Source: Mixia osmundae IAM 14324
Taxonomy: Eukaryota; Basidiomycota; Mixiomycetes; Mixiales; Mixiaceae
NCBI RefSeq assembly: GCF_000708205.1
Contig: NW_014575561.1
Span: 566,299-630,298, forward strand
DNA: 64,000 bases
Direction: 5' to 3'
A program made the position numbers and the translations under genes. Below are positions 7,833 to 12,015 of the stretch, piece after piece. A model generated the notes under the pieces. It saw nothing but the letters and a program-made list of their open reading frames with translations. It had not been told where the DNA came from and did no database searches. Each line of letters begins with the position of its first letter. Position 1 is the first letter of the stretch.

Positions 7833-8114
7833 TCTGAGGGACGTTGATGTCGAGCCTGGTGCCAGTGCGCGAGCGCGTCAGCGTCTTGCAGGCCGATGGG
7901 GAATGGGCTCCCGTCTATCGCAGGTGCACGAGTGACGGTCCAGCGCAGGAGGTGTCGTACGGATCAGTAGCTCACACAGCGTCAAGCTAGCTTCTCTTCA
8001 GTTCTTAGGGCATCAACCTTGCTGCAGCTTGCTCGAAAACATGGTCCGCTCCCATCTCCGCCTGATCTTGGTACGATCATGCTCACCCCCAGCTCTCGCT
8101 CATAGGCGGGCGCA

Positions 8115-11100
8115 ATGGACCGTGCCAAGCGTGACGGCAAGCGTGCAGGAGGCAAGTGTTTGAGTTGGGTAGCGTTCGATCTGCTCGGCTGCCCAGATCC
8201 TTCGATGAAGGAGGTGCTGATGTCTTCCGTTTGACAGAGAACGACAAGGAGTCCCAGTATGGCTCTGTCTTTTCCGTTTCGGGTCCCGTCGTCGTCGGAG
8301 AGAACATGGCAGGAGCAGCCATGTATGAGGCAAGTCGAACACGACATAGCTAGGAACACAGCTGACGCTGAGCCATCAGCTCGTTCGTGTCGGCCATGAC
8401 GAATTAGTAGGAGGTACCGCCGATCACTTTGAGCTCAGCAAGCAGCTCACAGCGACTCCGATCCGCAGAGATCATCCGCATCAACGGCGACAAGGTCACA
8501 ATCCAAGTCTACGAGGAAACGTCGGGTCAGCCAGACTTGACACTACGAGTTCACGATACTCATCCTTGGCTTATCGCAGGCATGCAAATCGGCGATCCTG
8601 TCCTGCGAACCGGCAAACCGCTCTCTGTCGAGCTGGGACCAGGTGTGCTGCCCACTGACAATTCTCGAGCTGTATGAACCTGTGCCTGCAGGTCTCTTGA
8701 GCAATATCTACGATGGCATTCAGCGGCCACTGAGGGCACGTTGCAACCCACGTCCAATGACTTACACGGCTGACTTGTGATGCACCGCGCAGAACATTGC
8801 GGAAAAGTCAGGCTCGATTTATATCCCCCGAGGCATTAGCACCCAGGCGCTCGATAGAGAGCATGAATGGGATTTCAAGCCGCTCGACTCGCTCAAAGTG
8901 GGCGATCACATATCAGGCGGCGGTACGTGTCCAGATTCAGCTTCCGTCGATCATTCGTGACATCCCATATGCGCAGATATCTTCGGGTCTGTTTTTGAGA
9001 ACTCGCTCATCGATGACCATAAGATCATGCTAGGCCCTCGAGCAATGGGCACCATCACGCACATCGCGGACAAGGGTAGCTATACCGTCGAGGTCAGTCG
9101 TCTTTCATCTCAGCGCACGGTACATCAAATGACCTATCGGCCAACAGGACGTCGTGCTCGAAACCGAGTTTGAAGGCAAGAAAACCGAGCACACAATGAT
9201 GCAAATCTGGCCCGTCAGAGCACCTAGACCGACAGACGAGAAGCTGGAGACCACTAATCCACTCCTCACTGGTCAACGTGTCCTCGATACGCTGTTCCCT
9301 TGTGTTCAGGGAGGCACAACTGCCATTCCTGGCGCCTTTGGTTGTGGCAAAACGGTCATCTCTCAAGCTGTCTCCAAGCAAGTCCCTAGGTGTCTTGCTA
9401 TCATAGCAGCTAATGGAATCGTAGATTCTCGAACTCTGATATCATTGTCTACGTCGGCTGTTTCGCCAAGGACACTGCGGTGCTCATGGCCGACGGCACT
9501 GAGAAGCCGATTCAGGACGTCGCCATTGAGGACGAAGTTATGGGCAAGGACGGCTGTGGTCGTGTAGTCGTCGGCCTTCCCCGGGGCGTCGAAACGATGT
9601 ACGACGTCGCTGCGATTGGTCAGCATCACAACCAGGCAGAGAATGGGCTCCTCAACTTCACTTGCAATGCCAGTCATAAGCTCGTTGTCTGCACGCCGCA
9701 GCACGTTCGCCTCACAGATCACATGCTCGGCCAGAAGATGCAGACGTCGGTCTCGTACTTCGTCATGGGTCAGGAGCGCGTCAGCGCAGATCGCGTCATT
9801 AGCGCAGTGACGCTACGCATGCGTTCGTGGCAGCACGAGCTTCACGGCGGTCACAGAGCTGCTCGCGTCAAAGCCGAGGCTTTCAAGGCTTCGATCGACA
9901 AGGATGAGATCTTCAACTGGACCATTGAAGCTCAACACGTCGCAGCGCTGAACATGCATGTGCGCAAGGCGACGCAGCAGACTATCAGCCCGGTCTTGCA
10001 CGAGAACCATCGCTTTGGCGATATCTTGAGTCAGCACGGTCTAGATCCGCAACTTGACGCCAGAGTCGCATATCTGGTCGGTCTTTGGCTGGGCAGCGGC
10101 TCCTCGGATGAACCGGCATTGACGATCGCCTCGAATGATGCAAAGACCGTTGAGCGTATCGATAGCCTCTGCTCAGCACTCGGCCTTGTCGCATCGGTTA
10201 GCGACGAGCATCATCGAGCCAAGATCGCTCGAGTCCAGGAGAATGTCGCCCACTCTGCTGCAACAGCAGATGATCAGAAACTGCACCGTGATCTGCACAT
10301 CAAGATCGTTGCAGATGGCGGCGAGACGAGCCATAACGTGTTTTGGACTACCCTCAGCGAAAACGGCTTCCGTGGCGCGTCGGCCAAGGAGCCCAAGGCG
10401 GTGCCTTCATGGGTCGCGTCAGAACCGTTCGGCGTGCGCGAGGCTTTCGTCGCAGGCATGGTCGACTCGGCCGGTCAAGTCAAGGCCAGCAAGGATCGTG
10501 CCATGCGCAGAAATGTAGACATCCTGACGGGACACGCATCCGTCTGTGACGGCCTTGTTCGGGTGGCTCGCTCACTTGGCATACGAGTCTCGGCCTCGAT
10601 GCAGGCAGTCAACGCATACGCTGTCTTTTTGTCTGGTGGTGAGGTAATCCAGTCAATGCTTAGCCTTTGCGCAGTCGAATGCAATCGCGCAGCACGGCCC
10701 GAAGGCCCAGTCAAGCGCCCCGGACAATCCTTCAACTTTACTGTCACGAAGACTGATCAAGCTCCATACTATGGCATAACGCTTGCTGACGATACGGATC
10801 ATAAATTCCTTCTGGGCAATCTCGCTCTCGTGCACAACTGTGGCGAGCGCGGCAATGAGATGGCCGAAGTCTTGATGGAATTTCCAGAACTGACCATTGG
10901 TCAGTCAACTTCGCAAAGGCTGGGTTTGAGAGCTGATAGGCCTGATCACTCCCAGAGCGTGAGGGCAAGGAGCATCCTATCATGTCTCGCTCCACCATCA
11001 TTGCGAACACATCGAACATGCCGGTAGCAGCACGAGAAGCGTCTATCTACACGGGCATCACCATCTCTGAGTATTTCCGTGATCAAGGCAAGAATGTCTC

Positions 11101-12015
11101 GATGATGGCAGACTCGACGAGTCGATGGGCAGAAGCTCTGCGAGAGATTTCGGGTCGTTTGGCCGAGATGCCTGCCGACTCTGGCTATCCCGCGTATCTC
11201 TCCGCTAAGCTAGCTTCTTTCTATGAGCGTGCCGGGCGCGCAAAGTGCCTCGGTAGTCCAGACAGAGATGGCACAGTTTCCATTATTGGCGCGTGAGTCC
11301 TTCCTAACCTTCATCTGGAATGCTTGCTAAGTGAAGCATGTATGCAGAGTATCACCTCCGGGTGGTGACTTCTCGGATCCCGTCACGTCTGCGACGCTGG
11401 GTATCGTGCAAGTCTTCTGGGGTTTGGACAAGAAGTTGGCCCAGAGGAAGCACTTCCCTTCCGTCAATTGGAATGTGAGCTACAGCAAGTACATCCGCGC
11501 ACTCCAGCCATGGTACGAACGTGAAGAGAGCGACTTCATCAACTATCGATCCAAGGCGAAAGAGATCCTGCAAAAGGAGGACGAGCTCGCAGAAATTGTG
11601 CAGCTGGTCGGCAAGAGTGCGCTCGGAGAGAGCGAAAAGGTCACGCTCGATGTTGCTCGGCTGCTGAAGGACGACTTCCTGCAGCAGAACGGCATGTCAA
11701 AATATGATCGGTACTGTCCATTCTACGTGAGTCATTCATTACTCGGTCAGCAGTCTGTGGCTGACGTAGACAATGTAGAAATCTACGGGCATGCTGCGAA
11801 ACTTCATCACATACTACGACGCAGCTCAAAAAGCTGTCGAGTCTGGCGAGATGTCGTGGAGCAAAGTCAGAGAGGCCACGGATCACGAATGGCATCAACT
11901 CACTCAAATGAAATTCGAGGATCCGAATGGTTCTGGCGCACAAGCAGAAATGGAGAAGAAGTACAAGCAGCTCACAGACTCGATCACAGAGAAATTCCGC
12001 ACTCTCAACGAATAG
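8115..12015 (+). CDS. VMA1: V-type ATPase catalytic subunit A (with intein)
   Basis: Thirteen exons give a precursor of about 1091 residues; removing the 460-residue intein leaves about 631, close to yeast Vma1. This subunit hydrolyses ATP in the V1 sector and drives vacuolar acidification. Seen in order: [48 protein letters not shown], the P-loop GAFGCGKT, then the intein, then [38 protein letters not shown] and [16 protein letters not shown]. Exons: 8115-8155, 8197-8329, 8380-8413, 8469-8525, 8580-8642, 8692-8735, 8793-8922, 8977-9092, 9148-9377, 9425-10899, 10956-11292, 11348-11726 and 11779-12015. Introns at 8330, 8736 and 9378 begin with GC. The first exon and its 41-nt intron are the least certain part. 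Confidence 0.92.
9459..10838 (+). mobile_element. VMA1 intein (VDE-type), endonuclease sites lost
   Basis: A 460-residue insert, in frame, sits between VYVG and CGERGNE of Vma1, the same site as the yeast VDE/PI-SceI intein (454 residues). It begins [18 protein letters not shown] and ends LVHN before the host Cys. Splicing residues are all present: Cys1, block B FTCNASH, penultimate His459, Asn460 and Cys+1. The C-terminal splicing block [18 protein letters not shown] is also close to VDE. The two LAGLIDADG helices are recognisable as [13 protein letters not shown] and [12 protein letters not shown]. Both catalytic Asp positions are changed: Ser at residue 213 (codon 10095-10097; D218 in VDE) and Ala at residue 338 (codon 10470-10472; D326 in VDE). 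I infer that it still splices but no longer cuts DNA. Confidence 0.93.

Follow-up and report, generated by a model that had tools for sequence, protein, structure and literature searches.

A VMA1 intein of the basidiomycete Mixia osmundae that lacks both endonuclease aspartates and is probably in the decay stage of the homing cycle

The VMA1 locus and its intein

The window, a stretch of 64,000 nucleotides from Mixia osmundae IAM 14324 (Mixiomycetes, Pucciniomycotina, Basidiomycota), contains VMA1, which encodes the catalytic subunit A of the V-ATPase, and within this gene an intein that is the subject of this work. When joined, the exons between 8041 and 12015 gave an exact match to the deposited protein of 1080 residues (P0001); residue 284 of this Vma1 precursor is the first of the intein. 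An earlier note on this DNA had placed an in-frame insert of 460 residues at the canonical VMA1 site, and its coordinates were exact: the insert comprises 1380 bases (460 codons) without a stop, begins with the TGT of Cys1 at 9459, ends with the AAC of Asn460 at 10838, and is directly followed by a TGT codon (Cys+1). The features, in positions of the window, are:

8041..12015, + strand: VMA1, for V-ATPase catalytic subunit A; 13 introns (4 of the GC-AG type) separate 14 exons
9459..10838, + strand: whole VMA1 intein, 460 aa (sequence searches, Pfam, superposition of the predicted structure)
9459..9995, + strand: N-terminal Hint part, residues 1-179, with Cys1 and block B N70xxH73 (boundary from the alignment with PI-SceI 183-410)
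9996..10706, + strand: LAGLIDADG homing endonuclease (HEN) domain, residues 180-416, predicted inactive (alignment, model)
10047..10097, + strand: first LAGLIDADG helix, residues 197-213, ending at S213 (PI-SceI D218; alignment, model)
10428..10472, + strand: second LAGLIDADG helix, residues 324-338, with R327, E328, A332, G333 and D336 of the conserved kernel, ending at A338 (PI-SceI D326; alignment, model)
10569..10580, + strand: kernel segment R371-S372-L373-G374, 98-100% conserved among the 50 doubly substituted VMA1 inteins
10707..10838, + strand: C-terminal Hint part, residues 417-460, with block F and His459-Asn460 (alignment)

The insertion site, between YVG and CGERGN, is the VMA1 (VMA-a) site. 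Cys1, the block B histidine, the terminal His-Asn and Cys+1 are all present, as the earlier note had reported except for block B, which it gave as TxxH and which reads N70-A-S-H73, aligned with N76 and H79 of PI-SceI. The best PDB sequence in a phmmer search was PI-SceI (1dfa, E 1.3e-73, residues 1-460 covered), and Pfam scored Hom_end_hint at 300.7 bits and Hom_end (PF05204) at 102.6 bits. By every sequence test made, the insert is a VMA1 (VMA-a) intein of the PI-SceI family. The 13.5 Mb assembly yielded a single VMA1 copy; apart from it, only a locus on contig 9 matched, at 33% identity. When four Pfam families were searched in the genome, matches to PF05203 and PF05204 were confined to the VMA1 locus, and the intein families PF14890 and PF14528 gave none. 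From the single host copy found, we infer that the intein splices: the Hint domain would excise it from the Vma1 precursor and join the exteins, with Cys1 and Cys+1 as nucleophiles and cyclisation of Asn460. The spliced Vma1 would have a computed mass of 68.7 kDa, close to the 68 kDa foreseen. A search of the literature available joining Mixia osmundae and intein found no paper.

Between blocks B and F lies a LAGLIDADG domain with the PI-SceI fold, as judged from the PF05204 match, the model and its superposition. Residues 180-416 are present, and the element is not a mini-intein, in which this domain is deleted. In active LAGLIDADG homing endonucleases each of the two helices ends in an acidic residue that binds metal. 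Here residue 213 is Ser (AGC, 10095-10097) at the position of PI-SceI D218 and residue 338 is Ala (GCC, 10470-10472) at that of D326; both substitutions had been anticipated, and the alignment with PI-SceI bears them out. K403 of PI-SceI is also replaced, by Asn. The nested domain is predicted to fold still, but it probably cannot cleave DNA, because the metal-holding carboxylates are gone at both half-sites; the element would therefore be unable to home and would be inherited with the host gene, and it may be fixed in the species, represented here by one strain. We consider it highly probable that this is a PI-SceI-family VMA1 intein that has reached the decay stage of its homing cycle. The observation behind the earlier note was right and its core inference, decay, is very likely, given both lost aspartates, the Asn at K403 and the decay-like HEN rates described below.

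Aspartate loss and HEN decay among VMA1 inteins

Two protein searches, each scoring 8000 candidates, yielded 122 proteins (21 at E ≤0.001 plus the best 120 of 612, with 19 shared). P0021, which is not VMA1, and P0041, with a broken C end, were dropped, and 120 VMA1 inteins were aligned; the structure alignment comprised the Mixia intein and 81 of 121 relatives. The list was ordered by similarity to one from Fonsecaea that is itself doubly substituted, and the aspartate fractions are not a census because the sample is the top of that list. Among the 120 aligned inteins, 26 have both D218 and D326, 44 have one and 50 have none. Thus at least one catalytic aspartate is lost in 94, all with a HEN region of at least 148 residues, and the Ser/Ala pair of Mixia occurs in 4. 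The minimum number of losses on the FastTree topology, with loss treated as irreversible, was 43 for D218 and 34 for D326, counts that would shift with errors in the topology. K403 is Lys in 23 of the 26 copies with both aspartates vs. 40 of the 94 others (Fisher p 3e-5). Losing at least one catalytic aspartate is the common state in the surveyed inteins, and the doubly substituted Mixia intein is at a common stage, that of a typical decayed VMA1 intein.

The earlier note found a full-length, uninterrupted HEN domain surprising in such an element. It is instead to be expected of an insert tied to the host reading frame, and most of the surveyed relatives have one too. Loss of Vma1 is severe in fungi, and yeast V-ATPase mutants survive only under mild conditions. 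Any stop or frameshift in the intein would cost the fungus its Vma1, from a gene found in one copy, and this keeps the frame open; the uninterrupted frame therefore says nothing about endonuclease activity.

Rates were compared as the ratio of HEN to Hint end-branch lengths, from protein sequences on the fixed FastTree topology. The pooled ratio, over all 120, was 1.17 with both aspartates, 1.65 with one lost and 1.94 with both lost; that of Mixia was 1.80. Medians and tests exclude 17 tips whose Hint end branch is ≤0.05. With tips taken as independent, copies with both aspartates differed from those with both lost (p 1e-5) and from those with one lost (p 0.001), and one vs. two lost gave p 0.06. 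The trend persisted when Hint branch length was controlled (permutation p 0.0002), and HEN length drops with aspartate loss among the 120 inteins. Of 60 column bootstraps, 59 put the Mixia ratio above the both-aspartate pool and 16 put it above the doubly substituted one. HEN rates and lengths together indicate that decay is under way. Degenerate VDEs of yeasts, according to Koufopanou and Burt in 2005, reportedly evolve faster as well.

Several observations weigh against decay in Mixia. The ratio for its one branch has a wide spread (bootstrap 5-95%, 1.05-2.28), and 4 of 20 tips with both aspartates exceed it. Mixia retains 32 of the 37 HEN columns that are ≥90% identical among both-aspartate copies. 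For the 35 columns other than the two aspartate sites, which were picked on the both-aspartate set and favour it, Mixia keeps 32, when compared with means of 33.9 in that set and 28.4 in doubly substituted copies; its HEN domain is less eroded than most.

The nearest well-known system, PI-SceI (VDE, the VMA1 intein of S. cerevisiae), has D218 and D326 and homes, whereas Mixia has S213, A338 and Asn for K403. The degenerate VDEs of Candida tropicalis, Lodderomyces elongisporus and Debaryomyces hansenii resemble Mixia in keeping the splicing motifs and the HEN domain with the motif C aspartate substituted; Mixia differs in its basidiomycete host and in having lost the aspartates of both motifs. 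As cited in PMC3338533, VDE activity was found in just 2 of 12 species tested (Posey et al., 2004). The PhoVMA intein of Pyrococcus horikoshii, as described in an excerpt of PMC8966425, has likewise lost HEN active-site residues in both helices and kept its architecture.

Persistence of the endonuclease fold

Ten HEN columns (PI-SceI G213, R315, E316, A320, G321, D324, R355, S356, L357 and G358) are 96-100% identical across the 50 doubly substituted inteins; the Mixia intein, itself one of the 50, carries every one of them (G208, R327, E328, A332, G333, D336, R371, S372, L373 and G374). We read this set, from its conservation, as a putative folding kernel. It would stay because a HEN domain misfolded between the Hint halves would threaten splicing. 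P0021 (602 aa; PF05203 and PF05204, no VMA1 domain, a cysteine-rich tail), which resembles the HO/WHO endonucleases of yeasts as these appear in an excerpt of PMC7282813, has the same residues by eye, and these therefore look general to the fold.

The dead domain might be held by selection, if Hint depended on HEN for folding or rate, rather than by the rarity of deletion alone; such HEN-Hint mutualism is discussed in the excerpt of PMC8966425, and we think it unlikely for Mixia. The near-constant ten columns speak for it, as do 16 Kickxellomycotina inteins, all without D326, in which 13 of 206 HEN columns are invariant (HEN tree length 9.36) when equal rates would leave ∼0.02. Equal rates are, however, a weak null, and in the Hint domain of these inteins 58 of 220 columns are invariant (tree length 4.35). 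Their support as one group is just 0.195 (49 for 8 of them in a 55-row tree); a single old loss of D326 is not secure because of this weak support, and is only the simplest reading. The residues shared with P0021 also argue against mutualism, as does the speeding up and shortening of HEN domains after catalytic loss. PI-SceI itself splices after removal of its endonuclease domain, which counts the same way. That HEN outlives its activity in VMA1 inteins, including that of Mixia, because splicing came to need its folded core seems to us improbable. If true, a selfish enzyme would have turned into a scaffold that its host protein cannot do without, with R-E...A-G..D and R-S-L-G fixed and the aspartates lost dozens of times.

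It is very unlikely that the domain still cleaves, through other residues or by nicking at one half-site. The equivalents of K301, T341 and H343 and the whole fold are retained in the alignment and predicted structure, and acidic residues (D217, E218 and D336) sit close to where the helices end. Mixia has neither the metal-site aspartates nor K403, however, and HEN rates fit inactivity. D336 is probably not a metal ligand, because the D324 position that it matches is identical in all 50 doubly substituted copies. We give equally little weight to a domesticated DNA binder that lost cleavage and kept binding for another role, as in WhiA, a transcription factor derived from a LAGLIDADG protein. 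A non-functional VMA1 allele or an assembly artefact is extremely improbable: no support for it was found, whereas the joined exons equal the deposited protein without stop or frameshift, the assembly yielded no second copy and the exteins group with Pucciniomycotina.

For the single locus the import of a decaying intein is small, a further case in an isolated basidiomycete. The family matters more: aspartate loss was common among the surveyed inteins and recurred dozens of times on the tree, with the fold set near-constant in doubly substituted copies. Why dead HEN domains persist in inteins becomes testable in this way, on natural copies that range from active-looking through half-dead to dead.

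Origin of the intein and further observations

Whether the intein was transferred or is simply old had been posed by the earlier note, to be judged from a tree of inteins vs. the host. Intein trees were built from 55 and 47 hand-chosen members of the 120. The Mixia intein grouped with Pezizomycotina inteins at SH-aLRT 96 (55 rows) and 49 (47 rows), which leans towards transfer with uneven support; 3 of the 12 rows labelled Pezizomycotina (P0024, P0025 and P0026) are so labelled by likeness alone. Its nearest neighbors (Fonsecaea, Rhinocladiella and Xylariales) belong to another phylum and share ≤46% identity with it on kept columns; the Fonsecaea intein is doubly substituted too (N, Q). In the host tree of exteins, with six partial precursors left out and 27 of 118 intein-lacking or other rows used, Mixia groups with Pucciniomycotina, in agreement with the basidiomycete host suspected earlier. 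Mixia is the sole Pucciniomycotina row with an intein among the 120 best-listed VMA1 relatives.

That the VMA1 intein came down vertically from a fungal ancestor and was lost in the other sampled Pucciniomycotina is possible but doubtful. The Mixia end branch of 0.89 and a host-like third-position GC (extein 0.627, Hint 0.682, HEN 0.612) speak for long residence and fit descent, as does the drop in Pezizomycotina support between row sets. Against it, PF05203 occurs in just 2 of the 120 best-listed Mixia C-extein matches (Mixia and Mycoemilia) and is absent from 23 rows with other Pucciniomycotina genus names (assigned by genus name). Placement of Mixia with Kickxellomycotina, outside the ascomycetes, was rejected (p 0.026 and 0.028, on row sets partly chosen after seeing the tree), and transfer across phyla occurs in the family, since two Coemansia inteins nest among those of Pezizomycotina. 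Horizontal transfer is favoured by these placements as the probable origin, but not proved. The occurrence itself is not new: VMA1 inteins are listed for Pucciniomycotina in Table 1 of Green et al. (2018; PMC5784728). Excerpts of PMC10849329 (three inteins in a smut genome, VMA unmentioned) and of the preprint PMC13405050 (homing endonuclease degradation) have no bearing on VMA1.

The two Coemansia inteins, P0033 (Coemansia sp. RSA 1822) and P0039 (RSA 371), have Coemansia exteins, a discordance that points to interphylum transfer. In P0240 (Coemansia sp. RSA 1972) the extein is nearly identical and there is no intein. P0033 keeps both aspartates, and homing may therefore be live there. A literature search for intein and Coemansia returned, in the text available, a sole co-mention that concerns MutS in plants. 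In Coemansia and its kin, one VMA1 site seemingly hosts three distinct lineages of intein.

In the Mixia VMA1 gene itself, introns 8152-8237, 8330-8379, 8736-8792 and 9378-9424 start with GC and not GT. Four of 13 is a seemingly high proportion for a single gene, VMA1 alone having been looked at.
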